Shown piece by piece: positions 7,764 to 24,125 of a stretch of DNA of 64,000 nt. The stretch comes from Oceanospirillaceae bacterium (lineage in GTDB: Bacteria; Pseudomonadota; Gammaproteobacteria; Pseudomonadales; Oceanobacteraceae). The notes beneath the pieces are model-generated. The model did no database searches, was not told the origin of the DNA, and was given only the letters and a program-made list of their open reading frames with translations. The stretch covers positions 248,001 to 312,000 of the forward strand of contig PBQA01000020.1 of NCBI GenBank assembly GCA_002724925.1, in the 5' to 3' direction. The translations under genes were made by a program, and so were the position numbers. Position 1 is the stretch's first letter, and each line of letters starts with the position of its first letter.

Positions 7764-9167
7764 ATGACCCAGGTACACCAGGACACCATTACAGCCATCG
7801 CAACCGCCCCAGGGCGTGGCGGTGTCGGCATTATCCGCGTGTCTGGTGAGAAAGCCTTACAGGTTGCACGACAAGTACTGGGGTACGAGCCGAAACCGCG
7901 CTACGCGCACTACGGGCCGTTCAAAGCCGAAGATGGCACCGTACTCGACGAAGGCATCGCTCTCTTCTTCCCGAATCCGAATTCCTTTACCGGCGAAGAC
8001 GTACTTGAATTGCAAGGCCATGGTGGCCCTGTGGTGCTCGATCTTCTGCTGAAAGAAGTCGTTGCACTTGGCTGCCGTATGGCCCGCCCCGGTGAATTCT
8101 CAGAGCGTGCCTTCTTAAACGACAAACTGGATCTTGCTCAGGCCGAAGCCATCGCTGACCTGATTGATTCTGCCTCAGAGCAAGCCGCACGTTGTGCGCT
8201 GCGCTCCATGCAGGGCGAATTCTCAAAGAAAGTACATGAACTGCTCGATCAACTGATACACCTGCGCATGTACACTGAAGCTGCGATCGACTTCCCTGAA
8301 GAAGAAATCGATTTTCTCTCTGATGGCAAAGTCGAAGCCATGCTCACCGAAGTAGAACAGGCGTTAGAGAAGGTACTACGCGAGGCAAATCAGGGTGCCA
8401 TCCTTCGTGAAGGCATGAACGTCGTCATCGCTGGGCGCCCGAACGCGGGTAAATCTTCATTACTCAATGCCCTCGCTGGCCAGGACCGCGCCATCGTCAC
8501 CGACATAGCCGGTACCACCCGCGACGTACTGAAAGAACATATCCACATCGACGGTATGCCGCTGCACATCATCGACACGGCGGGTTTGCGTGATGCCCCC
8601 GACGAAGTCGAGCGCATTGGTATTCAGCGTGCCTGGGACGAGATCACCAAGGCGGATCGTATTCTGCTGATGATCGATTCAACCACAGACGAAACCGACC
8701 CTGAGAAGCTCCTGCACGCCCTATACGATGAGCGCGGCCTTGAACAACAGACCGACGACCTGCTCGCCAGCGGACGCGTTACCGTGATTCGTAACAAAGC
8801 CGACCTCTCGACCGAAACCGTTGGCCTGGATACCACCGAAGGCTCAAACGCGAATTACCCAACTATTACCCTCTCAGCGAAACAGAACGCGGGCGTCGAT
8901 ACCCTGCGTGAACACCTCAAAGACGTCATGGGCTACAACGCCGCGAACGAAGGTGGCTTTCTTGCCCGCCGCCGCCACATTGACGCCCTGAATCGAGCCA
9001 AAGACGCCCTCGCCTACGGCCGCCAACAGCTTGAAGGCATGGGCGCAGGCGAACTGCTCGCCGAAGACTTGCGCATGGCACAGAACGCACTGAACGAAAT
9101 CACCGGCGCGTTTACCGCCGATGATCTGTTGGGTGAGATTTTTGGAAGCTTCTGTATTGGGAAATGA
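7764..9167 (+). CDS. mnmE: tRNA modification GTPase MnmE (TrmE)
   Basis: With MnmG, forms the 5-carboxymethylaminomethyl group on wobble uridine 34 of several tRNAs. The start is the ATG at 7764 ([20 protein letters not shown]), giving 467 residues. The N-terminal tetrahydrofolate-binding domain contains the [12 protein letters not shown] segment. The G domain has [24 protein letters not shown] and NKADL. The protein ends with the essential CIGK (C464). Its partner mnmG, adjacent in many relatives, is 20 kb away here. Confidence 0.97.
9150..9167 (+). other. mnmE 3'-end site resembling the SGI1-type attB
   Basis: The last 18 bases of mnmE, TTCTGTATTGGGAAATGA, match the trmE 3'-end attachment sequence used by SGI1-family integrative elements at 16 of 18 positions as I recall it. 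The defence locus begins at the next base. I see no second copy and no integrase gene, so this is a candidate hotspot scar and not a proven att site. Confidence 0.4.
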
Positions 9168-10571
9168 TCAGATATCAATTTCCCGAACTTCTTCATAGAG
9201 GTGCTGGGAGTCTCTGTAGATATTGTTAATACGCCATTGAGAGCGTCGCTTGTTGTTCTTCGGGTTGTCCGGATCAAATTTGGGTGCAGGATCCAGAAAT
9301 ATGACACCACTGGCGATTGATCGGATCATTCGCTCAAGGCTGGTTCTCTTGCACCAAAGAACCTGATTTCCAAAATGTACCTTGCGCGTATAACCGGCGT
9401 CATACTCTTCCTGAATTTCGTTGTCGGTTACTCTCGCGGGCACATAAACAGATTCGTTATGCTTTACGCCCCAGTTATTCAAAAGTCTTTCGGCAGACCA
9501 GCTGGCGGCAATATTTTCATCGTCATCTGCGAGTACAACCATAAGGTTCTCTAACTGATGTGCCAGCGGCTTGTCAGGATCATAATTTTCCAGCCCTTCC
9601 GATTCTGAGCCTTTTGGAGTACACAGTACGCGAAGAGAAAGCCCTGACTTCTCACTGACCGATCCAGCCCTATGCAGGCCTGTCAGGCGATACACGGCTT
9701 CTTTTTCGTATCCGTACTTCTGCATAAAGTCAGAGAAGCTCTGTGAATACAGTCCGCCGTCTGGTTCAGGCGTAAACAGAGTTAGTTTTTTACTGGTAAA
9801 ACACTTCAGTTCTATTCCAAAGATATCTCCATCTTTGGAGGCATTCGTTCTGATACCTAATTCGTGTTCAAGTGTATAGCCGTGAACTTGAGTACCTGTA
9901 AATGGAACGGTGTTTCCGTTAGCATCTAGTCGGCACCCTTTAATACTTTTACTGCCGATACGCTGTTTAAGCAGAGTCAACAGTTTATGAGATTCGGCTT
10001 CCTGTTCAATTTCGAGTACCCGACAAATTTTAGAGTCTGCGAAGAAAGGAAGCCCGAGAAATTCTTTCTTGAACTCTGGAGTAGGTGAAACAATCATTAC
10101 CGCTATTGCTTGACCCTCAATCGTTGCACCAATAGCGAGGTATCTCTCTATACTAGGGTTCTCTTTAGTGAAATCTACAGACATTGATCTTGGCATCAGC
10201 CCTGTTTCTGCTTTGAAACCAGAGAGTCTTACTTCGGGGTATTGAGCGTAGAGAACGCCTTTGCAGGTTGGAACCCTATGAAGGCTCTGGTCTGTGCCCA
10301 ACCACTGAAAATCATTAAAAACAGCGGACAGTATCTTAGTCCCTTTGATGCTTCCTTTACGTTTATTACTTTGACTCTTTTCCCGTGTGGAAAATGTCAT
10401 GTCAAAAATTGCATTGAGCAGGCTTGCATCGTGATGGAAGTAGATCTGCTGTTTGTCGTTGTTATTACGGCCAAGTTTTTTAATCAGAATCCGTTCACAA
10501 CCATGCTTCTTAAGAAAGGACGAGAGCTGATCTACAGAGTATACATCGACGTGATCCAGCACGTTGTACAT
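9168..10571 (-). CDS. MvaI/BcnI-family restriction endonuclease
   Basis: Likely nuclease of the defence locus. The start is the ATG at 10571 (MYNVLDHVDVYSVDQL), 14 nt after the drmB stop and preceded by AAGGA; the frame stays open further upstream, but that would overlap drmB by about 120 nt. Of 467 residues, the segment at about 225-275 carries the MvaI/BcnI pattern: TLEHELGIRTN, then KDGDIFGIELKCF with candidate catalytic D249, E254 and K256 (D...E-x-K). MvaI itself is about 250 aa, so the first 200 residues are an extra domain I cannot name. The namesakes cut CCWGG (MvaI) and CCSGG (BcnI). The stop touches the mnmE stop with no intergenic base, the two genes converging. It occupies the 3' slot where DISARM loci often carry drmC. 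Confidence 0.8.
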   Translation of the reverse strand: MYNVLDHVDVYSVDQLSSFLKKHGCERILIKKLGRNNNDKQQIYFHHDASLLNAIFDMTFSTREKSQSNKRKGSIKGTKILSAVFNDFQWLGTDQSLHRVPTCKGVLYAQYPEVRLSGFKAETGLMPRSMSVDFTKENPSIERYLAIGATIEGQAIAVMIVSPTPEFKKEFLGLPFFADSKICRVLEIEQEAESHKLLTLLKQRIGSKSIKGCRLDANGNTVPFTGTQVHGYTLEHELGIRTNASKDGDIFGIELKCFTSKKLTLFTPEPDGGLYSQSFSDFMQKYGYEKEAVYRLTGLHRAGSVSEKSGLSLRVLCTPKGSESEGLENYDPDKPLAHQLENLMVVLADDDENIAASWSAERLLNNWGVKHNESVYVPARVTDNEIQEEYDAGYTRKVHFGNQVLWCKRTSLERMIRSIASGVIFLDPAPKFDPDNPKNNKRRSQWRINNIYRDSQHLYEEVREIDI

Positions 10572-10585
10572 CGTAAAAATCCTTA

Positions 10586-12499
10586 TTACATATTGGTAAG
10601 TAAGCGGGACAGAAAACCAAAATCGGGGTTTTCCGGCTCTCCCACTAACATGGCCCTGTCGAGCCCATTGTTCATTGCTTCGCAACTGGTTTCGGGTAAT
10701 AAAACGCAAGCGTGACAGGCGGCCTTATTGCTATGTTGCGAGCCACGATGTCCCATATCCTCTGAGCAAACAGGATCTGCGGAGCACCATGATGCTGTGT
10801 CGACTGCTCGACGGATGAGAGGTTCAAGCAGCTCGGGTTGTCCCTGTCGAACAAGACCACCAAGACTTCCATCAGCATCCCCAGAAGCGGTATAGATCAA
10901 AAGTGCCGCCATCGGAGCTTTAGTATCGCTGGAAACGTAGAGCCTTTCTTTGAGAGCAGCAGATGAATAACCGCACTCAAATACAAGCTGTTTAATAAGT
11001 ATGTGTGACAGCGTATGAACAAGAAGGTAACGGGCTGCCCAGCGCCAGTTTCTGTCAGTCAGCTGATCAGGAGCATTAAGAAGGTATTGGTCGGCCATAT
11101 TTGCAACAAAACTGCTATCTAGACGCTTCTGTAACCACTCTGAATGATCATCTAACCATCGATTAACATCCCTGTCTTTCAGCTCAATATATATACCTTC
11201 TCCATAATTCTTTACAGCCGGTAGCCACTGACCTGTTTCCGGGGGAGGGTTTCTGAACAGTGTATGAATTGCCGATTCTGGCATGTTGTCCAATGGCTTC
11301 TTCGAGCGGATCAGCCGATCAAATCCGTAAAATACACGGGTTTCTCTCAAACGCTCTACGCGATGAATTTTTGAGATCCAGCCTGAAAATTCATCAGGAA
11401 CTTTACTGCTTATAATTCTGAGTTCATCAGGATTTACAGTGTGAGCCGCGCTTAGAATTGTGAACTCTGAGCGTCTGAACGCCAGTTCGGCCGTATCTGA
11501 AGTAGTAGGAGAAATCTGATCGACGGCTTTCTGGCCATTGGATAAATTTTTTAATGCTTCGATAAGCTCTGCATCGCTGTAATCAGCTACCAGATTATCC
11601 AGGTTGCCTTTGACTAAAATCAGAGCCTGCTCTTCACCGCCAAGCTCTAGACTCGCTTTGGCTAAATTCAGTAAGGACTCATTTTCCTGAAAAATTAATG
11701 AAAGTTCTTTGGCTCGTTGATCCTGACCTACGTATGGTAAATATATCGAGGATATCGATTTTGCCATATAAATATTAGATTGATTGATCAGGGCGCCTAC
11801 AGGCTTACGATCGCACGGTTCATAAATATTACCTAACCAGGGCCTGTTACCTGTGCAGCTAAGGTTGGCTTTACTGTAGAGACCCGAAGATTCAACCTCG
11901 GATTTATCATCGCTCAATTCATATTGCATTGCTCCCTGAAGATCTCTACCCTTATTGCATCCTTTGCAATGAACTTTGACAGAGCCAAGATCCGGGCCGC
12001 CAGCATCATGCAGAAACAGCTGGTCTGATCCGGAGCAGGTACAGCCACTCCATTCCTTCCACGGAAAGTCTGAAATATGTCCATTTTCACATACTGAGAT
12101 AAATCTTACCGGTTGCCACTGCTCTCTATTCGGTGATCTGGCTTTCAGCATTCTAAGCCTGGATTCAAGATTAAACTGCGTCAGTCTTCCGGATATCTTA
12201 TCCACGTACCACCGGGGAAACCGGTGGATACCGATTTCCAGTTGACTGATTTCAGGATCATCCCGATCATATATGTACTGAGGTGGTTGATAGAAAAGCC
12301 CTACTTTTAAGAGCTCAGAAAGGCGAGCCTCGCTGATGAGGTATTTGTTTCTGACAGCATCAGATATCTTCGAGTCTCCTGGCTTTTTCAACCAGAAATC
12401 CAGTCCACAGACAATATTAGATTGACCATACTGGTCGTTATACAAACTACCCGGCCCAAAAGGAGCAATAAGTTGTCCTGTACGAATGTCATTGGCCAT
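10586..12499 (-). CDS. drmB: DISARM protein DrmB (DUF1998)
   Basis: DrmB is a core component of DISARM anti-phage systems. The N-terminus has the typical MANDIRTGQLIAPFGPGS; the ATG at 12499 is chosen over a GTG at 12508 because of AGAAGG 8 nt before it. Cysteine pairs in the first third (CENGHISDFPW, CTCSGS, CKGC) suggest a zinc fold. The DUF1998 region starts near 492 (LVHTLSHILIKQL), followed by a cysteine cluster at 572, 578, 595, 598 and 606. It overlaps drmA by 11 nt, so the two are translationally coupled. The 637-residue length is about normal for DrmB. Confidence 0.85.
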   Translation of the reverse strand: MANDIRTGQLIAPFGPGSLYNDQYGQSNIVCGLDFWLKKPGDSKISDAVRNKYLISEARLSELLKVGLFYQPPQYIYDRDDPEISQLEIGIHRFPRWYVDKISGRLTQFNLESRLRMLKARSPNREQWQPVRFISVCENGHISDFPWKEWSGCTCSGSDQLFLHDAGGPDLGSVKVHCKGCNKGRDLQGAMQYELSDDKSEVESSGLYSKANLSCTGNRPWLGNIYEPCDRKPVGALINQSNIYMAKSISSIYLPYVGQDQRAKELSLIFQENESLLNLAKASLELGGEEQALILVKGNLDNLVADYSDAELIEALKNLSNGQKAVDQISPTTSDTAELAFRRSEFTILSAAHTVNPDELRIISSKVPDEFSGWISKIHRVERLRETRVFYGFDRLIRSKKPLDNMPESAIHTLFRNPPPETGQWLPAVKNYGEGIYIELKDRDVNRWLDDHSEWLQKRLDSSFVANMADQYLLNAPDQLTDRNWRWAARYLLVHTLSHILIKQLVFECGYSSAALKERLYVSSDTKAPMAALLIYTASGDADGSLGGLVRQGQPELLEPLIRRAVDTASWCSADPVCSEDMGHRGSQHSNKAACHACVLLPETSCEAMNNGLDRAMLVGEPENPDFGFLSRLLTNM

Positions 12500-15400
12500 T
12501 CTGATCACCTTCTAATTCCATATAGCGCTCGTTGATACTAAATCGAGCTGTGCCATCGACATTACGCATGCTACTGAGCACATTGACTCCCGCTTTTTGC
12601 TGAGCAGAAGATGAATGAGCACCAGGCCATAAAATCAGGTAATTGCCGTCCCGTTTCTGTGGAAACTCGTGCCACATCAGCGGGTTCATTCTTCCCTTGC
12701 GGAGAAGTTCATCGTGTACCTGTTCAATGACTTTTACAACACGATCTGCCTCCGCTTCCTGTTGTTCGAAGAGAAGCTCGCAACGCTCAATCAGAAAATC
12801 CTTTGCGTCTTCAATGGTAGACTCGTAGTGTCCAAATGTTGCACCGGGATGATCTGAACGGTACTGCTGACGAGCCCAGAGCAACATGATTCCTGCCGCA
12901 GCTCGTTTAACCGTTTCGATTGAGAATGGCGTGGCTGAGGTGGGTTCAACCTGCTCGTATAACCGCTGGTGATAATTCTGGAAATGCTCGAAGTGAGATA
13001 AATCCCGGCTCTTATTCGGGTTGTACATCATCATGATCAGTCCCGGGCGATCCCACCAACGACGACCCACGCGGCCGGATACCTGAATATATTGAGCTGT
13101 TGATTTTGGCTGGCCAACAATCGCCATCAGTGAGAGCCGATCAATATCTACTCCGACCTCAATAATGTTCGAAGCCAGGCAGGCGTCGACGGGCTTGTAG
13201 GTATTAGTCAAGGGCCTGGACAGTTCATCCATCAACTTAACCAATTCTGCCTGGGTGCGGCGGCTGGTCAGTTCTTCAATTTTGTTCAGATACCGCTTCT
13301 GGTTGTCCTCGACGTTGTAGCGATGCATGAAGTCTTTCATACGTGCGGCTATATCAGAACTAAACAGTGTTCTGGCACCACCCAATTCCCGTAAGCTGTT
13401 ATAAAAAGCTAACAGGGACCACCAGGCGTCCTTGCTGTCATCAGGCATCAGGCTTGACCGGAATAATGCAGCAGAGAACGCCCGCACCTGGGTGGTGAGG
13501 AAAGATTTATAACCAGTTGCATTGATGCCAAGATAGAGGCGGCCTTGCTTCAAATTCCCATTGGCTTCTCTGGCATAACGGCCAAAGAAAGAATCGCTGA
13601 TATCAAGACCAGGATTTGGAAATAGCTGCAACTGATCTTCATAACGGGCATATATGGCCTTTGTTTGATTCATTGCACCACGGATGGTTGCTGTTGATGC
13701 GATGACTTTAGGCCGGACCGGATTACCCTTAATCTCCTGAGTACAAAGGCGCTCGATAGCAGTTTCATAGAGGCCATATATTGACCCCAATGGTCCAGAG
13801 ATAAGGTGGAATTCGTCCTGGATTATAAGACCCGGTGGCTCAGCGATACGTTCTATGGGACCGTTGGTTTCTGGATAGTGCCTGAGCCCAAACAATGTAC
13901 CGGCTTCTGGTTTAAAGGCCAGCATTGCGAATTTATCAGCCGTGCTGATAAACATACTGGGAGGGTTCTTATAGAGTGCTTCGTCAATCACTTCGATAGG
14001 CAGGCGGGTATCGATCGCACCGAAATGGCAATTCACATCGGAACACTTCAGATGCGGCTGCTTACTTTCAATTATTCCTAAAATGGTATTGTTCTTATGT
14101 GTTTTTACTTTCACGAGACCAATTTCACTGCGACACCATGGGCACTCAGTGATCACTAAGGGGTTACCCTTCGTTTCTTCTTTCTTGAATTTTCTTATTG
14201 CAGCAGTAGCGTCTTTCCACTTGTTCGGAGAAGCATCCCGTCCAACCCAGAGGCCAAGGGTAAAGGGTTTAGTGCCAAGATCAGTGTCCACGCTGTATGT
14301 ACGGATGTATTCCATTGAACAGATAAGACTGGCAGCGCGTTGAAACTGCTGGGTCGTCAACATGCGCAAGGTGTAACGCATAAAGACATTCGTACCGTCT
14401 TTCCGTAGTTCGCCATGTTTTGGAGGTTCCAGCCGCTGAAGAAACATATAGAAGGCAGCAACGCCTAAATAAGCTTCAGTCTTACCACCACCAGTGGGGA
14501 ACCAGATGAGATCAACAACCTCTCGGTCATCGGAGAATGGATCCGTGAAGCCTTCGATACTCAACAAGAGGAATGCTGCCTGGAAGGCGCGCCAGTATTT
14601 TTCAGAAGTCTTGGTTGAATCCTGCCATGCTTCATCCGGGTTCAGTGACGAATCTGGTGATTGAGCGACCGGTTCAGCTGTTTTATTTGAAGCTTTCAAA
14701 GGCCGTTGTTGGATGTCTTTTGTGGCTGTCTGTTGAAACCACATGGCTTTATTTGCAAGCCTGAAAGCGTTTAATGGATCGGTATTACCCGCCAGGGCTT
14801 CAAGTCCACTCTTCATTCGCGTCAGGCATCTGTTGCAGCCGTCAAGGTGCCTTTCCGCGGTTTCGCGGTGCTGGTCATTGAAGCCTGAAGTTTTTTTGCG
14901 CTCGTCATTGATCCATTGTTCATAGGCGTATACAAGAGTCTCAAGCGAGGCCCATCCAGGGTCACTACTGTCAGTATTCTGGATGTTCGCGAGGTCTCTC
15001 ATGGATAGTTTCAGTTCACTGCCATTTACGATGATATCCGGGGTCATACTCGGCAGCTCTACTGCGGGCATACAATCGGCCGTGATCATCATTGGCGTCT
15101 GGCCTTCATCGGCTCGCCAGGTGGCTGCGCACCCATGACCAATGGCCCAATTGGCTGAGTTTCTGTATAGCAGACTCAGGGTTTTCTCATCATCGTCCAG
15201 ATTTCTATGCTCTCCACGACCTTGTGGATATTCTGTAAATGACGCTCCATTACGTGCTTCGACTTCAAAGCACGCCTGATACAGTGTCTGCTCGATGACT
15301 TGACGATAAGACAGGTTCGTAGCGACCTGGCTGTTACGGAGTACCACAGTGATTATCCGCTTGCCAAATGAAGAGCGGGAATAAAGATCCAGTTGTAGCT

Positions 15401-16160
15401 TTATGCCGTTACTAAGGTTTATTTCTTGTTTAGTAAGTCGTCGGGTGAGTAATTCTGGAACGTCGAACGTGAATATCTGTTCAGTTTGTAGGGCAGGTCT
15501 ACGGCGCCAGGCATCACTTTCAACTGTTGTGCCATCACTAGCTGTTGTTACAGTAGTGCACCTCTCGTACACCCCGTTCACCAGGAATGGTTCGGAGTCC
15601 GGCTGCTGCCAAAACAGGCGTTTTTCGATGGGGATGCGTATGAGAATTTCGCCTTCGCTGCTCTCATCAATGCAGAAGCTGACACCCATAGTTGAAGGTT
15701 TGTAGGCATCAGAACCATTAACTTCGAAATCTTCGTCGTCAGCTGAATATACTGGGGCTGCTTCGTCCCGTGAGTATGTCTCGCTTTCTGCATCTTCATT
15801 CTTCAGGGCATATGTTCCGGCATCTGGAGCGGTATTTCCAACCACTGAATTGTTTCCGTCGTCAGGGCGTTCTGAGTCCCAAGGTTTTTCGTCCGAAGGT
15901 GGCAGGTAGTTCCCGGGGTACAGCAGGCCTATACCGTAGCGCTGAGCAGGGGTCTCTCTCCGGATGACCTCCTGTAGATGGTCCTGGCCTTCTGGTTGCC
16001 AGAACACAGATCCCTTCAACTTTCCAGGAGCTGGTAACTGGCAGGTGGACGATGAATTAAATTCAACTTTGAGTCCGGGGTAATCTTCACCTACTGGCCT
16101 TGAAGGCCCTATCATTTCAGATCTCAGAAATTCAATTTCCTGAGCACGTTCATTATTCAT
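12489..16160 (-). CDS. drmA: DISARM helicase DrmA
   Basis: Large superfamily 2 helicase of DISARM (1223 aa). The N-terminal 540 residues are family-specific. The helicase core follows: Walker A FPTGGGKT at 554-561, Walker B-like QDEFHLISG at 782-790, motif III-like ASTAT at 822-826 and motif VI VSGRVGRR at 1028-1035. An insert at 674-712 holds four cysteines (CPWC...CSDVNC), probably zinc-binding. DrmA and DrmB form the core complex; published work on DISARM assigns DrmAB DNA binding and translocation. The start at 16160 overlaps the upstream helicase gene by ATGA and has AGAAGGATC before it. Confidence 0.87.
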   Translation of the reverse strand: MNNERAQEIEFLRSEMIGPSRPVGEDYPGLKVEFNSSSTCQLPAPGKLKGSVFWQPEGQDHLQEVIRRETPAQRYGIGLLYPGNYLPPSDEKPWDSERPDDGNNSVVGNTAPDAGTYALKNEDAESETYSRDEAAPVYSADDEDFEVNGSDAYKPSTMGVSFCIDESSEGEILIRIPIEKRLFWQQPDSEPFLVNGVYERCTTVTTASDGTTVESDAWRRRPALQTEQIFTFDVPELLTRRLTKQEINLSNGIKLQLDLYSRSSFGKRIITVVLRNSQVATNLSYRQVIEQTLYQACFEVEARNGASFTEYPQGRGEHRNLDDDEKTLSLLYRNSANWAIGHGCAATWRADEGQTPMMITADCMPAVELPSMTPDIIVNGSELKLSMRDLANIQNTDSSDPGWASLETLVYAYEQWINDERKKTSGFNDQHRETAERHLDGCNRCLTRMKSGLEALAGNTDPLNAFRLANKAMWFQQTATKDIQQRPLKASNKTAEPVAQSPDSSLNPDEAWQDSTKTSEKYWRAFQAAFLLLSIEGFTDPFSDDREVVDLIWFPTGGGKTEAYLGVAAFYMFLQRLEPPKHGELRKDGTNVFMRYTLRMLTTQQFQRAASLICSMEYIRTYSVDTDLGTKPFTLGLWVGRDASPNKWKDATAAIRKFKKEETKGNPLVITECPWCRSEIGLVKVKTHKNNTILGIIESKQPHLKCSDVNCHFGAIDTRLPIEVIDEALYKNPPSMFISTADKFAMLAFKPEAGTLFGLRHYPETNGPIERIAEPPGLIIQDEFHLISGPLGSIYGLYETAIERLCTQEIKGNPVRPKVIASTATIRGAMNQTKAIYARYEDQLQLFPNPGLDISDSFFGRYAREANGNLKQGRLYLGINATGYKSFLTTQVRAFSAALFRSSLMPDDSKDAWWSLLAFYNSLRELGGARTLFSSDIAARMKDFMHRYNVEDNQKRYLNKIEELTSRRTQAELVKLMDELSRPLTNTYKPVDACLASNIIEVGVDIDRLSLMAIVGQPKSTAQYIQVSGRVGRRWWDRPGLIMMMYNPNKSRDLSHFEHFQNYHQRLYEQVEPTSATPFSIETVKRAAAGIMLLWARQQYRSDHPGATFGHYESTIEDAKDFLIERCELLFEQQEAEADRVVKVIEQVHDELLRKGRMNPLMWHEFPQKRDGNYLILWPGAHSSSAQQKAGVNVLSSMRNVDGTARFSINERYMELEGDQNGQ

Positions 16161-17881
16161 TTCAGATCCTTCTGGTTAATCCAGTTCAGCAAGTCTTGTT
16201 TGCTATCTTCACTACACAACACAAACACCTGTTCTGTTGCCCTTGTAATAGCTGTGTAGAAAAGATTACGGGTGACGGAAGTGCCGCGCAGGTCGACATC
16301 CGTAAGCAGAATCACTTTGTTCTCAAGCCCTTTGTAGGCATGAGCAGTTGTATATTGTACATAACCAGGGCGTTTGGTCTCGGATGCAGCCTGCAGGTTT
16401 ATCGTGCTCTGGTTCTGTAGCTCTGTGATACAGGACTTAGCGGCAGATCCATAGCTCAGTAATGTGATATCTTCGGCTTTGAAGCCGTTCTTTATGGAAG
16501 CTGAAATGAAAGTGTCTATCTTCCCGATCTGCTCATCTATGTTTTTGTAAGTTGCTAACTTAAAACTATTTAGGCCGCCGCCCGTTCGCATATAGCCACT
16601 ATAGGTATCATCAGAGGCATCTGATAAGGAGATAGCAAGATTCCCTACAGCAGAGTAATTACGGCAGTTCTCACCCAGTTTCCAGCAAGCGCTGTATCTC
16701 TTGAATTGGTTCAGTGTGTTACTGATCAGATCATGATCGAAAGTAAGAATCTGATTCTGAAAATCGCCCATCAACATGCAATGACCGCCATTGAAACCAC
16801 CTTCAATTAACAGGTCCACGGTTTCAAAGAGATCTGGCCGCCCGAGAAAATCCTGGGCTTCGTCTATTACCAGGTAGTCGAACATTGCTTCCTGTTGCCG
16901 TTCAGGGTTGGTGAGTGCATCCTGGACTTCTGAAAGCATGTCATCCCAGAACGAAGTCGGCGCTTGTGCAGGGATATCAATATCGAACAGATTGAGCAGA
17001 ACTGAGTTTACAGGCCCAGCGATTAGCAAAGGGTGATTACCTTGTGACACCTCGGATTGTGCCCATTTACCTACAAGATTATTGAAAGTCAGAAATGCAG
17101 TGCGTAACCCTTGCTCTGCTTTTCTGCGAGCTACCTCAAGCCCAATAAGGGTTTTACCAGTTCCGGCACCACCTTCAATGATAATTCTTGAGTTCCACTC
17201 GCTAAGCTTGAGCACCGGAGTCTGTTGTACCCGTAACTTCGCTTCCAGTTCATGGGACCGGGCTGCCAGTTCTTCTTCTTTCTCTGGCCGTCGCTTTCGG
17301 ATAGGAAAGCAGTATTCAATAAACTGCTCGATCATTACAGCTGATAGAGGTGTGTCTAAGGGTTTTACCTGGGGATCTGTATCGATAAGTTTCTGGGCCA
17401 TATTTTTCAACCCAGCGCAGAATTCGTCTGGGTGCTGCAGACTCCGGAAGCGAGTTCTGTCCATTACTTCGAAAGGTTGAATAGAGAGGTTTCTTGGAAC
17501 AGTAAAAGGAGCGTTAGGGAATATGCAGCAATGAAGAACCGGAACATCTTTCCACATGGCAAGACCTGCGGAGATACGTCGTTGCAGGGCGTAACGACCA
17601 TCCATTGCCTGCTGGAATGGAGACTTCTTCACCCTTTCCGGATACCAGGATTGTCCGTCGAAGCCTATCTCTCGGTGTGATTTAACTTCAACGCACAGAA
17701 GACCAACATCTGGAATGATAATCAGAAAGTCAATTTCGGTACGCTTCATCCGGTTAAAGGGAGCGAGATCCAGCGAATGAATCACCGTCCAGTCAGTGGT
17801 TGCTTGCTGTATTTTTTCATAGATAAGAACTTCGCCAGGTGGACTTTTATCCTGATCTATAAAGGCCGGGATTATACGCAT
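16157..17881 (-). CDS. NERD-domain UvrD/Rep-type helicase
   Basis: 574-residue fusion. The N-terminal NERD nuclease-related domain has D51, E65 and K67 in DFLIIIPDVGLLCVEVKSH, a PD-(D/E)XK-like arrangement. A superfamily 1 helicase follows, with Walker A GGAGTGKT at 237-244, IDEAQDF at 339-345 and C-terminal motifs TTAHAYKGLE and NLFYTAITRA. It overlaps drmA by 4 nt and the upstream unknown gene by 10 nt. NERD-helicase proteins are known defence and DNA-processing components but are not among the named DISARM genes; DrmD of class 1 DISARM is an SNF2-type helicase, which this is not. Role inferred: DNA unwinding or degradation with DrmAB. Confidence 0.85.
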   Translation of the reverse strand: MRIIPAFIDQDKSPPGEVLIYEKIQQATTDWTVIHSLDLAPFNRMKRTEIDFLIIIPDVGLLCVEVKSHREIGFDGQSWYPERVKKSPFQQAMDGRYALQRRISAGLAMWKDVPVLHCCIFPNAPFTVPRNLSIQPFEVMDRTRFRSLQHPDEFCAGLKNMAQKLIDTDPQVKPLDTPLSAVMIEQFIEYCFPIRKRRPEKEEELAARSHELEAKLRVQQTPVLKLSEWNSRIIIEGGAGTGKTLIGLEVARRKAEQGLRTAFLTFNNLVGKWAQSEVSQGNHPLLIAGPVNSVLLNLFDIDIPAQAPTSFWDDMLSEVQDALTNPERQQEAMFDYLVIDEAQDFLGRPDLFETVDLLIEGGFNGGHCMLMGDFQNQILTFDHDLISNTLNQFKRYSACWKLGENCRNYSAVGNLAISLSDASDDTYSGYMRTGGGLNSFKLATYKNIDEQIGKIDTFISASIKNGFKAEDITLLSYGSAAKSCITELQNQSTINLQAASETKRPGYVQYTTAHAYKGLENKVILLTDVDLRGTSVTRNLFYTAITRATEQVFVLCSEDSKQDLLNWINQKDLK

Positions 17882-19479
17882 GTCGCCTTATATTCCTTGT
17901 TCTGTATTGCTCTGTATTGTTCGGTCTGTTCCTTATCAATAAGCTTTGAGAGCATCTCTTCTGGTGCATAGAATCCTCTATCGATATTACTTACTCTTCG
18001 AAATACAACATGTCCTGTCAAACCGGTATCTTCTGGCATTGTGAATTCGTAAAAGTCTGTATTAGCGGATAATATATCGATATATGAATCCATGCATTTT
18101 CTCAGCTCATTATAAAGTTGATCTGCGACAATCCTATGGCTTAGTTGACCGTTTTCAATGCTACGGCTTTTATAATTACTCAATTCAGCCCAGGCGTTTT
18201 CTGCAATTGATAGACGAGGATCTTTTAAATCATATCCGTACCATATATCCTGCCGAAGAACCGATTCAATAAGGGCTATGAAATGTGATTTTCTTTGAGG
18301 GGCATTGATTCTATATTTATCAAAAGTAGACCAGCTTTCAGCGGCTTTATAACGATCCTGAAGTGCTATGCCTGCGAGTACCATCTTTAATGTAACAGCA
18401 CCTGGTAGACGACGAAGTTGCCGATGAAGATCTGATTTCCATATCTTTGCCATAGGATAATCTTCAGGGTTGATCTCCTCTTTTCCAAGATCGACCTCGA
18501 TACTTTGATCAATCCAGAAATCACCACTCCTTATTTCCTTTGCAGTTAATTGTAGAATTTCAAGACCGCAGGAATGGTTACGGAATACAAGTTCACGATG
18601 CCCCTTCCGGAATAGTGCAGCTTTGTTCTCTGAAAGTAATATACGTATGCAATTTATATCCGAACTTGCCTTAGTAGAGTAATTCTCTGCGTCGTTTAAG
18701 AATTCGTCATCAAGTGAGGAAGTGTCAGTATCACTATATTCTTCGGCGTGAGTACTATCCGAAACAGTTCTCGTTGTGAGTGGCATCAGCTGCAAATAAT
18801 TAATATCTGAATTTATTGGATCCTGTGCCAACTCGATTTCATCTGAAGTACGGTCCCAACAGAAACGGATTAGTTTTCTGTATTTTGGAGCATTAAGTAT
18901 CGGAGGCGCTATTTTTTGCATTCCCTCCATACGAAATGATCCGATTCGGAACAGTACATCGAATGGCTGAGCCACGCGATATTCTTTTAATCCTGTAATA
19001 AATTGGGTATCGGTCAGTTCTACATCATCATTAAGAAGTTTCTGAAAGTTGGCTATTTCTCGGCTTCGACATGCAATTCTTATACGGTCTACTCCAAACT
19101 CTGAAATTGTATTGATGACCTGTCTTCTAAATTCATCAATGAGAATCGAATTTCCTGACCGCCAATTAGTATGTAGTTCTTCGACTCGGTTTAATAACTT
19201 TCTGGTTTCTTCTCCGTATAACCGACCAACTTTTTCTTTATCTGATAGTAGAGGATGTGAAAATAGCTGAGAATCGCCATGCCACGGTGTATATCTTAGG
19301 CGAGCATACTCTATTCTTAGTTTGATTGCCGCTTCACTACCTTGGCCGTCTTCTTCTGGATCATCAAGATCGAAAGACACCTGTTTGAGTAATTTACATA
19401 AGTACGAGAATAGCTCTGATTTACATAACCATAATTCCTGACTGACATATTCTTCAGGTAGTTTTCTCATATCCGTCAT
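17872..19479 (-). CDS. Defence-locus protein of unknown function (535 aa)
   Basis: I do not recognise the family. The start at 19479 overlaps the upstream stop as ATGA and has GGAG 5 nt before it; a start at 19524 is open but lacks such a site. The protein is soluble-looking with no membrane segment. It has a segment of alternating hydrophobics (FDVLFRIGSFRMEGMQKI, about 173-190), an acidic low-complexity stretch at about 240-266, and a helical C-terminal half. Base composition is visibly more AT-rich than in drmA. Together with the 331-aa neighbour it approaches the size of DrmE, the unassigned component of class 2 DISARM, so a split DrmE-like protein is possible but unproven. Confidence 0.75.
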   Translation of the reverse strand: MTDMRKLPEEYVSQELWLCKSELFSYLCKLLKQVSFDLDDPEEDGQGSEAAIKLRIEYARLRYTPWHGDSQLFSHPLLSDKEKVGRLYGEETRKLLNRVEELHTNWRSGNSILIDEFRRQVINTISEFGVDRIRIACRSREIANFQKLLNDDVELTDTQFITGLKEYRVAQPFDVLFRIGSFRMEGMQKIAPPILNAPKYRKLIRFCWDRTSDEIELAQDPINSDINYLQLMPLTTRTVSDSTHAEEYSDTDTSSLDDEFLNDAENYSTKASSDINCIRILLSENKAALFRKGHRELVFRNHSCGLEILQLTAKEIRSGDFWIDQSIEVDLGKEEINPEDYPMAKIWKSDLHRQLRRLPGAVTLKMVLAGIALQDRYKAAESWSTFDKYRINAPQRKSHFIALIESVLRQDIWYGYDLKDPRLSIAENAWAELSNYKSRSIENGQLSHRIVADQLYNELRKCMDSYIDILSANTDFYEFTMPEDTGLTGHVVFRRVSNIDRGFYAPEEMLSKLIDKEQTEQYRAIQNKEYKATCV

Positions 19480-20471
19480 ATTCTCTCCATTGATCTGATC
19501 TGGATATATGGAGACTGGAAACATACTGGTGGGGGAATCTCATGATAGTAGCGCTGTCTATCCTGAAGGAAGGCCTCGAACTCCTCCAGAGCCGCACGAG
19601 AGCCGGATCTGTTAATGACTCCTACAATACTTGCGCCTGAAATATCGGAAAATATGTTCCAAGCACTAACAGTCTCTTTCGTGCCTTGTGCAATTATTAC
19701 CGAAGGATCTTGATAAAAGGCATGCTCTTCAAGTTGCCGTTCTCCTATCAGGGTGACACGGCTAATGGTTGATTTACTATCGTCTCCCAGCATTAACAGG
19801 TCAGCCATTGAGATGTAGCTGCCATCAAAAGTAAAACAAGATTTTCTTAGTAGATCCATATAGTTTGAATTGTCACCTGCTGAAGCGGAGACAAGAATAT
19901 GCTCAAGAAAGGAGGAGGTCAGGTTCTCTTTTTTGATTAATTTTAACCCGACTGGTAGTGATTCCATTACTCCGACTAGGGAAGGATCAGGTTGCAATGA
20001 ACTTTGAGGAACCGGTAGTCCATTTATTTGCCAGTCAGATGCATAGGCAGACATTATCCATGATTTTAGCGATTCATTTTTCTTCTTGCCTCTGGACCTT
20101 TTCTGTCCAGTAACAATAATACCGGTACTATCTACCTCCTCTGAAAAATAATATTGCTTTTCTGGATCGGTATGCTTCCGGACATGCCATGCCTCTAGCG
20201 AGCTATTCCGGGAAGTAAGTACTTTCTCTCGAGCTGATAGCAAAAAGGAGAAATAGTTATTACACAGATTGTCATCTGCTCGTTCGAGAGAAGCTCGCAG
20301 TGCTCCTAAAGCTATAAGAGGCGCGATAGAGGATTCAAAAGGTGATGAAATCAGATGGATCTTCTTTGAAGAGACCTTTTTATCATTTACCAAGGTGTAA
20401 CCAAGGCGTATAGATTTTACCACCCAGTCGGGCAGGTCCTCAAATAAACATCCTTGTTCGTAATATTTCAT
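19476..20471 (-). CDS. Defence-locus protein of unknown function (331 aa)
   Basis: Not recognised with confidence. The ATG at 20471 follows AGGA. Visible segments: HLISSPFESSIAPLIALGAL near residue 40 (hydrophobic, nucleotide-fold-like), a basic patch GQKRSRGKKKN near 127, and a Rossmann-like strand pattern near the C-terminus (DPSVIIAQGTKETVSAWNIF then ASIVGVINRSGSR). There are no catalytic motifs I can name. It is coupled by ATGA to the 535-aa gene, so the two products are probably made in equal amounts and may form one complex. It might be the N-terminal half of a DrmE-like protein; a profile search would decide. Confidence 0.72.
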   Translation of the reverse strand: MKYYEQGCLFEDLPDWVVKSIRLGYTLVNDKKVSSKKIHLISSPFESSIAPLIALGALRASLERADDNLCNNYFSFLLSAREKVLTSRNSSLEAWHVRKHTDPEKQYYFSEEVDSTGIIVTGQKRSRGKKKNESLKSWIMSAYASDWQINGLPVPQSSLQPDPSLVGVMESLPVGLKLIKKENLTSSFLEHILVSASAGDNSNYMDLLRKSCFTFDGSYISMADLLMLGDDSKSTISRVTLIGERQLEEHAFYQDPSVIIAQGTKETVSAWNIFSDISGASIVGVINRSGSRAALEEFEAFLQDRQRYYHEIPPPVCFQSPYIQIRSMERI

Positions 20472-20547
20472 ATTTCCTACCGGGCTAAAGCACTACTTAT
20501 CCATTTGACTTTACCTGGTGCATTACTTCAAGTACCTGTATCAGCAT

Positions 20548-21900
20548 TTACTCTATAAGGCGCTTGGTTACGAGTTTGGCTACTGCTCGGAATACAGGAA
20601 CCACGACAGAGTTACCAAACTGTTTGTATGCCTGCGTATCTGATACAGGGATGACAAAGTCATCCTGATCGGGGCGACTGAACCCCATCAGCTTTGCACA
20701 CTCATAGGGAGTAAGCCGTCTGGGGCGATTCTCCAGGTTCTTTCTGTTATCAAAGCCCTTTTTGAAGTCCCAGCCTCGATCAACGAGTATCTCTGATCCG
20801 TCTTTGTAATAACGTGCAGACAAGGTACGCGCGACATCATTGGGGCCGACAAGGCCGAAACCGAAGCCATTACCCTTTTCCTTATGCTTTATCGCATAAT
20901 TGTGGAGGTACTCCCAAAGCTTTGGAGTCAGTGTGTATTTAGCGTCTACATCCTGATCAAAGATGTCACCAAGGGTGATCTTCTTTTTAGGGTAGTATTT
21001 GCGAATATCTTTCAGTGTGAAGCCTTCATGGATGTTCAGGTCTTTGCGGAATCCCACAAGAACAATCCGCTCACGGTGCTGAGGAACCCAGTTTTTTGCA
21101 TCAATCACTTTAGGGTCTTTGGGACCTTCGTGATCTGCATCAGCAACCCAGTAGCCAAGCTCATCAAGGGTTTGCATGATGATCTTGAAGGTTTTGCCTT
21201 TATCGTGGCTCTTAAGATTTTTTACGTTCTCAAGAATGAACGCCTTCGGTTGCTTTGCCTTAATGATACGTGCGACGTCGAAGAAAAGGGTGCCTTGTGT
21301 ATTGCACTCAAAGCCATGAGCACGCCCGAGAGAATTTTTCTTTGAAACTCCAGCGATAGAAAATGGCTGACATGGGAACCCGGCTAACAGAATGTCGTGG
21401 TCTGGAATCATTCTGTCGATATTCTGATAGGCCTCTTCTTCGGAGACGGTCTCGTCAGAGGACAGCGTTACGTCTCTGATGTCCTCATTGAAGGTATGGT
21501 AGTCGCCATGACTGTAATAATTTGCCTTGTAGGTGCGCGCAGCAAACTTATTCCATTCGCTGGTGAATACGCAAAGACCATTCTCATCTTCAAATCCTTT
21601 ACGGATTCCACCAATACCCGCAAACAGGTCGATGAACCTGAAACTCTCTTTCCCGGGGATAACTTTTTCTTTCGGAAGAAGGCCTTTAAGAGCTTTGAAT
21701 TCCTTAGCGCTGAGGCGAGGTTCGGATTTACCTTTGCTCCATCTATTGATGGTTTCTCTGCACCAGTGCCCAGGAGTCACAGAGTTGAGAAAGTCTGCGA
21801 TTGCTTTCTGGTCATAAATTTCGAGAAGTTGACCCAAAAGAGTGGTATCAGATATGTCATCATAGCCTTCTGTGATGAATGCGAGTTGTTCAGTGGCCAT
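20548..21900 (-). CDS. dcm: DNA cytosine-5 methyltransferase, Dcm/EcoRII-like
   Basis: Predicted self-marking methyltransferase. The 450 residues carry the ordered C5 motifs: I DLFAGIGG (91-98), [10 protein letters not shown] with catalytic C177, VI ENV (224-226), VIII QHRER (274-278) and [13 protein letters not shown] near the end. The N-terminal 80 residues, with [10 protein letters not shown] and [14 protein letters not shown], resemble the extension of Dcm and M.EcoRII, which methylate the inner C of CCWGG; the specificity here is inferred from that. It is the first gene of the leftward defence unit, with GGAGAT 5 nt before the ATG, and diverges from vsr. Class 2 DISARM uses a C5 methyltransferase (DrmMII) reported to modify CCWGG. 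Confidence 0.9.
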
Positions 21901-21960
21901 TTTTATCTCCAGGTCAATTGTGTGACATCATATCACTGATTCATTCCATTCGGGAGCAAT
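21901..21960. promoter_or_regulatory. Shared divergent promoter region of methyltransferase and vsr
   Basis: 60-bp gap that must carry the start signals of both genes. I see TATGAT on the minus strand (about 21923-21928) as a possible -10 for the methyltransferase unit but no convincing -35. Ribosome sites are GGAGAT (methyltransferase) and GGGAG (vsr). Confidence 0.4.
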
Positions 21961-22416
21961 ATGTCAGACGTCCACTCCCCAGCTACCCGCAGTCGCAATA
22001 TGTCGGCTATCCGGGGTAAAGATACAAAGCCGGAAATGCTGATCCGGCGGGCCTTGCATGCTCGTGGCTTCCGGTTCCGTCTGCATAACCGGGCACTGCC
22101 GGGGTCGCCAGATCTGGTGCTACCTAAGTACCGTGCTGCAGTCTTTGTTCATGGCTGCTTCTGGCATCGTCATAACTGTCCTATGTTTCACTGGCCATCA
22201 TCCCGCGAAGAGTTCTGGCGGGAAAAGCTGAATGCCAACTACGAGCGCGATGAGCGTAATATCAACTTACTACTGAATGCAGGCTGGCGCGTTGCTGTGG
22301 TGTGGGAGTGCAGTCTTCGCGGTAGACAAAAGAAAAAACTGAATACTGTAATCAATCAACTCTCCACATGGCTCAGGTCTGACCAGCACTATTTCAGTAT
22401 GTCGGGTGATTCCTGA
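21961..22416 (+). CDS. vsr: Very short patch repair endonuclease Vsr
   Basis: Nicks DNA 5' of the T in T:G mismatches that arise when 5-methylcytosine deaminates in Dcm sites. The 151 residues have all family landmarks at the E. coli numbering: E25 (KPEML), D51 (SPDLVLP), H64 and H69 in VHGCFWHRHNC, and a zinc set including C66, H71 and C73. Position 63 is V where E. coli Vsr has T. It diverges from the Dcm-like methyltransferase across 60 bp, which supports CCWGG-type methylation by that enzyme. The 3' end overlaps the convergent 123-aa gene by 23 bp. Confidence 0.95.
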   Translation: MSDVHSPATRSRNMSAIRGKDTKPEMLIRRALHARGFRFRLHNRALPGSPDLVLPKYRAAVFVHGCFWHRHNCPMFHWPSSREEFWREKLNANYERDERNINLLLNAGWRVAVVWECSLRGRQKKKLNTVINQLSTWLRSDQHYFSMSGDS

Positions 22417-22765
22417 CGTAATACCGGGTTTCGAGCCAGTCGTTGATGATATTCATCACTCGTATAAATTGGTCGCACACTCCCTGTACGTCCAATTCTT
22501 CCCAATCGTAGAAATTACCTGCTTTCGGTATCGGATGGTCTTCATCAAGTAGGTATATGTTGGCATCTACAACGTCGTGTAGCTCAGAAAAAGTTTTAAC
22601 ATTTTCTGGCTGTACGCCTCTACGCAGATCTTCTTTGATCCATTCGATAGCAATAGCGGCGCGGTAGCGGATTACGCTTTCCAGTGTGAGTTCACCTCTG
22701 AGGCCGATGCCGTGGTGGAATGTGCGGGTTTCTTCAAGAACGGAAATTGCCTGGTTCGTTTCCAT
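22394..22765 (-). CDS. Hypothetical protein (123 aa)
   Basis: Unrecognised soluble protein, MET-NQAISVLEETRTFHHGIG start, no signal peptide or membrane segment. It contains ELTLESVIRYRAAIAIEW, where two consecutive helices are likely, and ends with a Trp/Tyr-containing helix (IINDWLETRYYV). Its 3' end runs 23 bp into the end of vsr on the opposite strand, so the vsr and orphan regions were joined closely. Translation is preceded by AAGAGACC. It could be an immunity-type or small accessory gene; no function is assigned. Confidence 0.6.
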   Translation of the reverse strand: METNQAISVLEETRTFHHGIGLRGELTLESVIRYRAAIAIEWIKEDLRRGVQPENVKTFSELHDVVDANIYLLDEDHPIPKAGNFYDWEELDVQGVCDQFIRVMNIINDWLETRYYVRNHPTY

Positions 22766-23669: not shown

Positions 23670-24125
23670 CTACAATTTTATTTGTTCTGATAATTTTAAA
23701 CATCCGATCTCTATAATTCTATCTTTATAAATATTCAAGTCATCGATTTCTGGTTGAGAAAGGTTGAGGGAACTAAAATATCGTTCTATTGAGGAATAGA
23801 GTATTGACACTGATGATTTATTTAGTGATGAAAAATAAATAGGATTTCTAGAAAATAGTACGGCTAAAGCAAGTATATTTTCGATTACAGATTCAATGTT
23901 TTCTTGCGATTCTTCTGTTCCTAAGAACTCACTAAGTTTATTAATAAAAACCGTTAAATTTTTATCAGGGTCCTCTTCAATGTATTTCTTGACCCATCCT
24001 TTCGTTTGTGCAAAGTAAGCGTGTTCGTGGGTTTCTCGGTTACGAGAAAAATACTCGTCTTTACCTAGAAAAAACTTAACGGTTTCATTATTTTGAACTG
24101 CAGTTTTAAATAAATTATTACTCAC
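23670..24125 (-). CDS. Candidate immunity protein (151 aa)
   Basis: AT-rich gene whose start overlaps the toxin stop as ATGA, the usual toxin-then-immunity arrangement. The product is helix-rich and acidic, with no signal peptide, for example ESQENIESVIENILALAVLF and SVSILYSSIERYFSSLNLS. I do not recognise the family. Function as the cognate immunity protein is inferred from position, coupling and matching low GC with the toxin C-terminal region only. Confidence 0.6.
   Translation of the reverse strand: MSNNLFKTAVQNNETVKFFLGKDEYFSRNRETHEHAYFAQTKGWVKKYIEEDPDKNLTVFINKLSEFLGTEESQENIESVIENILALAVLFSRNPIYFSSLNKSSVSILYSSIERYFSSLNLSQPEIDDLNIYKDRIIEIGCLKLSEQIKL

Follow-up and report, generated by a model that had tools for sequence, protein, structure and literature searches.

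A DISARM-like five-gene core with changing restriction partners, found beside a predicted CCWGG modification and restriction set in an Oceanospirillaceae genome

The locus described here lies at positions 9168 to 22416 of a 64,000-nucleotide stretch of an Oceanospirillaceae bacterium genome (assembly GCA_002724925.1, contig PBQA01000020.1), referred to below as the window. It holds five genes, P331-P550-NERD/UvrD-DrmA-DrmB (the core), between a gene for a Dcm-type C5 methyltransferase, with vsr divergent from it, and a gene for an MvaI/BcnI-family nuclease. All eight genes were found where a first-pass annotation, made from the sequence alone, had put them. The core is conserved in other genomes, its methyltransferase and nuclease partners change from locus to locus, and in a genome of the same genus an EcoRII-C gene stands in place of the core and the nuclease. 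Having neither DrmC nor the class 1 genes of DISARM, the locus is regarded as a new DISARM-like variant, apparently undescribed.

The five-gene core and its partners

The core was complete, and its order identical, in eight of eight loci: the window, Pseudomonas sp. MWU13-2100 (L011), Noviherbaspirillum galbum (L012), Massilia sp. Root335 (L013), two Gammaproteobacteria metagenome-assembled genomes (MAGs; L014 and L020, already found as G332 and G213 in an earlier P550 search), a Gemmatimonadetes MAG (L015) and a Steroidobacteraceae MAG (L019). Five further loci are truncated where their contig stops (Crenothrix twice, Verrucomicrobiales, Spirochaetales and Blastocatellia), and what is left of the core keeps this order. 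Judging from record titles, the core extends over five phyla, with complete cores in two of them, a count to which the doubt about MAG binning applies. Recurrence in unrelated genomes had been set beforehand as a test of the first-pass annotation; the gene set of the window is not a chance assembly, given that other genomes repeat the core with its order unchanged.

One scan with an alignment of the NERD/UvrD protein against 84,980 species genomes gave 74 pattern matches, 13 of which encode a relative, and five of the eight complete loci were found by the NERD query only. P550 adjoined the NERD relative in 12 of the 13 loci (models from three loci), the other being a NERD protein alone in Mycolicibacterium. 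L010 and L017 belong to a single MAG, being separate contigs of it. As the scan was seeded with NERD, core forms lacking this gene would escape it, and since it used two peptide patterns only, further members are likely. The NERD helicase matches in Selenomonas, Leisingera, Thermomicrobium, Nostoc carneum and Mycolicibacterium were not taken as core relatives, no DrmA/DUF1998 gene being seen nearby by annotation or models, and a Paracoccus match, in which the models showed NERD only, was likewise not accepted.

The core is rare and patchily distributed. It was present in 3 of 369 genomes of the class (the window's own included), in 1 of 398 of the phylum and 1 of 9 of the genus (the window's own in each case), and in 1 of 249 genomes of a Pseudomonas set (that of L011 itself). 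A single-protein search with P550 in plasmids and viral contigs returned nothing, a NERD search in phages one weak match, and a DrmA scan of viral contigs one relative.

A C5 methyltransferase gene was located within 4.1 kb of the core in seven of the eight complete loci, L013 being the exception, and a Vsr-like gene occurred in six. The nuclease was MvaI in three (the window, L012 and L015), and in one, L011, a McrB-like protein was paired with a DUF2357/PD-(D/E)XK protein; this McrBC plus C5 methyltransferase set, which we take to be LlaJI-like, partners the core in Pseudomonas sp. MWU13-2100 and is not present in the window. For L014, L019 and L020, no nuclease besides Vsr was seen in open reading frame (ORF) lists and with our own models, the Pfam scan covering only some of the neighbours. 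Nine C5 genes (PF00145) were counted in 32.3 Mb from six genomes, picked for carrying the core or its pieces and with gene fragments merged by eye, giving a probability of about 0.006 of one lying within 10 kb of a random point. Even at a defence-island background of 0.2, seven of eight loci with a C5 methyltransferase would have a probability of 8e-5, which is not a strict test, as the loci share descent.

Compared with the window methyltransferase, that of L012 was 69% identical and that of L015 48%, those of L011, L014 and L019 were 23-27% identical over part of their length, and that of L020 gave no match. Five of the six other enzymes are thus less than half identical to the window's, so the link between core and methyltransferase has largely been re-made rather than merely inherited. 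What typifies the core is a change of partners and not CCWGG: since both methyltransferase and nuclease vary among core loci, CCWGG is one plug-in and not intrinsic. CCWGG does not characterise the DISARM-like part, the core elsewhere having other C5 methyltransferases and other nucleases.

CCWGG prediction and exchange within the genus

Two components of a type II CCWGG set are present in the window, a Dcm-family C5 methyltransferase and a CCNGG-family nuclease with its catalytic residues. The methyltransferase matched 3me5, presumably a Dcm-type enzyme, over its full length (608 bits), and its C-terminal target recognition domain region was conserved. A seven-sequence MvaI profile matched R.MvaI (1.2e-9) and R.BcnI (2.3e-4) with the PD-ExK residues aligned, and D250, E255 and K257 (numbering of the 468-letter row) were invariant in the seven rows; the profile was required, as a single-sequence phmmer search of the nuclease against PDB gave no match. 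Vsr matched 1cw0, which we take to be E. coli Vsr.

The same Dcm-Vsr pair (93% and 86% identity) was present at the same site in the same-genus genome G1002. There the 11.4-kb block of core plus MvaI is missing, and about 1.9 kb with an EcoRII-C gene (PF09019, 1.6e-65) is found instead. By blastn the exchange has its break points at 9163 and 20573, and the flanking DNA is 84.9% and 86.1% identical. The exchange for EcoRII-C behind the same Dcm-Vsr pair supports CCWGG and suggests that core plus MvaI is the restriction arm of Dcm. Across the genus, this site adjoining mnmE carries differing restriction arms.

The observed/expected ratio of CCWGG in the window was 0.78, compared with 0.80 for GGWCC; as the two are alike, no avoidance of CCWGG is claimed. 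On homology and gene context, CCWGG is the predicted specificity of both Dcm and MvaI. The first-pass annotation had drawn it from three independent families; the matches of all three stood and the EcoRII-C gene was added to them, but the argument from their independence loses some weight, given the plasmid-borne MvaI-dcm-vsr sets considered below. Its wider idea, a DISARM variant combined with a CCWGG set, was retained in that a DISARM-like DrmAB core shares a codirectional run with a CCWGG-type set, CCWGG itself being demoted to one plug-in, though strengthened by the exchange.

Relation to DISARM and likely mode of action

Class 2 DISARM consists of DrmE, DrmA, DrmB, DrmC and DrmMII. The window resembles it in having DrmA and DrmB with intact motifs, a C5 methyltransferase in the operon and a putative, transitive DrmE_C link of P550. 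It differs in that no PLD match, and hence no DrmC, was found among its eight proteins, the core loci having MvaI, Vsr or McrBC-like nucleases instead; in that the core adds the NERD/UvrD helicase; in that the DrmE-like part is split in two and not directly recognised; and in that DrmA forms its own clade. The kinship to class 2 is partial: DrmA, DrmB and the methyltransferase are shared, DrmC is lacking, and DrmE would be linked transitively at most. With class 1 DISARM (DrmD, DrmMI, DrmA, DrmB, DrmC) the locus shares DrmA and DrmB, whereas neither a SNF2-type DrmD nor the adenine methyltransferase DrmMI is among the eight genes, DrmC is lacking and DrmA falls in a separate clade. Dcm/EcoRII or MvaI type II restriction-modification sets with Vsr share the Dcm-type methyltransferase, the MvaI/BcnI nuclease and Vsr, but the window has five extra genes between methyltransferase and nuclease.

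ARMADA, BRIGADE and TALON, defined in PMC12458937, share the YprA-family helicase with our locus, and Vsr or NERD-type nucleases occur in them; the same paper describes DISARM as typically having a PLD nuclease after the DUF1998 gene. Unlike them, the window has no BrxHII, PglX, TPR-CSD, TBP or deazaguanine genes, and its helicase is separate from the DUF1998 part, as in DISARM. Regarding ARMADA, no BrxHII-like or PglX-like gene was among the eight and Vsr is a gene of its own, not a helicase C-terminus; regarding TALON, neither TPR-CSD nor TBP was among them and NERD is there but fused to UvrD. In the main text of PMC12458937 'MvaI' occurs 0 times and 'NERD' twice, the passages of PMC12839542 that were consulted leave DISARM unmentioned, and in PMC4752239 DUF1998 belongs to a restriction set of another kind, whose nuclease is of the HNH type. 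In keeping with the first-pass remark that no described system with the full gene set was known, no paper on it was found by title or start of abstract in literature mostly outside subscription journals and without bioRxiv.

The DrmE question turns on P331 and P550. Walker A was seen in none of 11 P331 and none of 13 P550 sequences, and none of these proteins gave a meaningful direct Pfam match. Over residues ~10-240 the fold of P550 is RecA2-like, with no helicase motifs. Foldseek against PDB gave no match at E<=0.001 for either model; P331 had PilT ATPases as its best sub-threshold rows, and P550 had UDP-glucose dehydrogenases. The P331 matches of a second aligner fell within its own stated background, so the RecA1 reading is weak, and other families are also compatible with that list; P331 may be RecA1-like. 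DrmE_C was matched by a Nostoc relative of P550 (1.9e-6) and by a Priestia protein (1.2e-6), both encoded before drmA, and had no match at E<=5 among the 13 core P550 proteins and none in 249 genomes of the phylum. The P331 and P550 models recognised Nostoc genes at 1.4e-6 and 3.2e-6, and the Nostoc P550-like protein is in turn related to one from Rhodococcus (22.7% identity, 3e-12). P550 would thus be tied to DrmE by a transitive link, through the Nostoc protein, and we infer that P331 and P550 form a split, inactive, DrmE-like helicase.

In an unrooted DrmA tree of 28 rows with several long branches, the core loci formed one clade (10 rows, 100/100). A wider clade (15 rows, 100/100) added Rhodococcus opacus pROB02, Deinococcus psychrotolerans, Nostoc sp. 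HK-01, Priestia megaterium (viewed on one side only) and one viral contig, which has a C5 methyltransferase near DrmA. Outside it lay five class 1 DISARM rows (L059 being so labelled from its large methyltransferase only), one class 2-like row (L055, so named for its gene order; no DrmE model matched its 801-aa gene) and seven other DrmAB rows. The sister of the window's DrmA was that of L011 (98/98), which has the McrBC-like partner and not MvaI; L012 paired with L013 (100/100), and L015 branched elsewhere. Among the wider set outside the core, the P331 and P550 models recognised genes only in Nostoc; in Rhodococcus and D. psychrotolerans the corresponding positions are taken by two unknown genes. 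On pROB02 (L024:10870-24465) these two, NERD, DrmA and DrmB stand beside Vsr, a NaeI-family nuclease, HNH and a C5 methyltransferase.

We judge it about evenly balanced whether the locus is a two-layered restriction system built around a single self mark, the core processing the ends that MvaI makes. Dcm would methylate host CCWGG sites, Vsr would mend the deamination damage arising from this methylation, and the MvaI-type nuclease would cut incoming DNA at unmethylated CCWGG. The core would serve as a DISARM-like helicase-nuclease module, in which DrmAB, by analogy with Serratia, may load on DNA ends or single-stranded overhangs and prefer unmethylated DNA, the NERD/UvrD protein would unwind and degrade DNA, and P331 with P550 might act as a DNA-binding adaptor or sensor. 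The likeliest order would be that MvaI makes ends and the core then processes them, spreading the attack along DNA without the 5-methylcytosine (5mC) mark. Core and MvaI would cooperate physically, and the locus would have an anti-phage effect; that DrmAB and the NERD helicase translocate for MvaI, as the first-pass annotation proposed, is conceivable.

According to PMC9142583, Serratia DrmAB binds 5'-overhang DNA, and unmethylated DNA stimulates its ATPase activity, which is lower with 5mC DNA. DrmC did not co-purify with it and is described as dispensable and often missing, so that how DISARM destroys DNA is an open matter. Class 2 DISARM is reported there to protect against modified phage too; the 5mC mark may therefore not be a strict gate. 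A related clade next to sequence-specific nucleases, together with the same Dcm-Vsr mark beside EcoRII-C in one species and beside DrmAB plus MvaI in another, would allow a clear-cut test of the idea that DrmAB extends the action of a restriction nuclease. This contrast within one genus would also test 5mC gating of DrmAB, and relatives with a swapped marking partner or cutting block make the pairing directly testable. More tentatively, the core could be a portable restriction amplifier for any 5mC set, reading missing 5mC through DrmAB and the split pseudo-helicase and degrading DNA nicked or cut by its partner (MvaI, NaeI-type, McrBC-like or Vsr); it would then define a separate DISARM-like class, with exchangeable nucleases in the stead of DrmC.

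The two-layer reading is favoured by the unvarying core order in the eight complete loci, by the C5 methyltransferase near seven of these cores and its largely re-made link, by the different nuclease partner of the closest DrmA relative, by the exchange for EcoRII-C behind the same Dcm-Vsr pair, and by the separate DrmAB lineages near MvaI or EcoRII-C plus dcm that are described below. Several observations weigh against it. No methyltransferase was seen beside the L013 core, its contig ending ~6 kb upstream (a C5 methyltransferase and Vsr pair at the end of another contig of that genome may or may not adjoin the core), and no methyltransferase was seen near the Nostoc or D. psychrotolerans DrmA, nor on the whole D. 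psychrotolerans plasmid. The layout also differs, MvaI being divergent in L012 and the methyltransferase being on the opposite strand in L015 and L019. MvaI, dcm and vsr occur on Celeribacter and Sphingomonas plasmids with no DrmAB in view; the restriction set can thus stand alone and need not require the core.

The L013 core, the stand-alone type II cassette and the differing restriction arms at the mnmE site also favour the strongest alternative, which we consider possible but clearly less probable than two layers: two independent defences, a CCWGG type II set and a separate DISARM-like system, would share one insertion site and travel together. Against this stand the C5 methyltransferases, mostly dissimilar, near the core in seven of eight loci, the close-spaced codirectional run in the window, and the exchanged block carrying core and MvaI together. 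It is rather unlikely that the locus is a diverged class 2 DISARM with drmC lost, drmE split into P331 and P550, and a nuclease next to it that plays no functional part. DrmA, DrmB and a C5 methyltransferase are all there, the short DrmA model scored best for the window (as it did for the class 1 DrmA of L056), DrmE_C occurs before drmA in Nostoc, in a relative of P550, and in Priestia, and DrmC is dispensable by the account cited above; but NERD/UvrD is in all complete core loci (partly by construction, given the loci found by its query only), the DrmA clade is split at 100/100 from the class 1 rows and the one class 2-like row, which is not a verified class 2 locus, and no core P550 matches DrmE_C. 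A locus mainly for 5mC housekeeping or repair, composed of Dcm, Vsr and helicase-nuclease repair proteins, is very improbable: Vsr is a repair enzyme and one YprA-family helicase branch is repair-related according to PMC12458937, yet a restriction nuclease is in the run, the occurrence is rare and patchy, and relatives carry other restriction genes at the same site.

Separate DrmAB lineages were also found ~3-8 kb from MvaI or EcoRII-C plus dcm, two of them first met through an MvaI search, and the CCWGG link may recur beyond the core clade. A plasmid tblastn search with DrmA gave 74 records, of which 40 were listed; 12 chosen from them and four met in other searches were examined, so these are not frequency estimates. 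The non-core loci L049:2977-21495 (Rhizobium pTA1_2), L005:2734-18990 (Photobacterium damselae plasmid) and L052:10035-24790 (Photobacterium TY1-4) lie near MvaI plus dcm (with Vsr too in Rhizobium) or EcoRII-C plus dcm, together with UvrD, NERD or AAA proteins, and our own models found no P331 or P550 in them. On Deinococcus gobiensis P4 (L031:2727-17630), Vsr, a DUF2357 protein, a hypothetical protein and a C5 methyltransferase adjoin NERD-DrmA-DrmB, like the Pseudomonas partner set. On a Deinococcus sp. AJ005 plasmid (L058:7275-15603), Vsr and a C5 methyltransferase lie directly downstream of a DISARM system annotated as class 1.

Genes of the window locus and its surroundings

Table 1. Features of the locus, in window positions
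Feature	Position	Strand	Evidence
MvaI/BcnI-family restriction endonuclease, ~467 aa	9168..10571	-	PF15515 8.8e-26; start from homologues
DrmB, MZB/DUF1998 zinc domain	10586..12508	-	NF038324 393.7 bits (cut-off 240); profile 7s9v_B 5.5e-70
DrmA, superfamily 2 helicase	12489..16160	-	PADLOC DrmA 683 bits; profile 7s9v_A 2.1e-169
NERD (PD-ExK) fused to UvrD-type superfamily 1 helicase	16157..17881	-	PF08378 3.3e-11; PF13538 2e-8
P550, RecA2-like fold without helicase motifs, C-terminal part remotely like DrmE_C	17872..19479	-	
P331, alpha/beta protein, possibly RecA1-like half without Walker A	19476..20471	-	
Dcm-type C5 methyltransferase, predicted CCWGG	20548..21900	-	NF007772 753.5 bits (cut-off 710)
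Vsr very-short-patch repair endonuclease, divergent from dcm	21961..22416	+	TIGR00632 158 bits; 1cw0 8.2e-44
Exchanged block, core plus MvaI	9164..20572		blastn against same-genus G1002
Small gene beside the cassette, boundary marker, not claimed as system member	22394..22765	-	

The minus-strand genes from MvaI to dcm form one codirectional, closely packed run. The first-pass description of one leftward overlapping unit held for this run and not for an overlap of MvaI with drmB: the 513-aa MvaI ORF was over-called, homologues aligning from a Met at about 10571, 14 nt past the drmB stop, and there is therefore no overlap. P550, 550 aa in its longest ORF, probably starts at 19479, giving 535 aa and an ATGA-type overlap with the P331 gene. 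The stop codons of mnmE (ending at 9167) and of MvaI, on the opposite strand, abut, and a second copy of the mnmE end, expected from site-specific integration, was not found within the window. MvaI occupies the slot after drmB that drmC has in DISARM, and its long N-terminal part is common to MvaI cassettes elsewhere.

DrmA has its motifs GGGKT, DEFH and GRVGR intact, and scored 869 bits with the NCBIfam DrmAS model, under the cut-off of 950; DrmB retains its zinc-site cysteines. The NERD/UvrD protein has both nuclease and helicase motif sets, with D51, E65, K67 and G240-K243 (GTGK) invariant in 12 aligned rows, and its profile gave no PDB match at 1e-6. The C5 methyltransferase was also matched by the PADLOC DrmMII models.

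The small gene at 22394..22765 matched no Pfam family; within the genus, four genomes (the window, G1002, G1007 and G1001) have it next to the cassette. Further along, a 548-aa protein (24122-25768; adjoining 23670-24125), also without a Pfam family, matched a 1605-aa ORF (L075:3291-8108) of the same-genus genome G1008 over 368 aa (93%) and a 501-aa ORF of G1003 over 406 aa (88%). These two relatives are each trailed by different small genes, and the locus is perhaps polymorphic-toxin-like, with exchanged ends.

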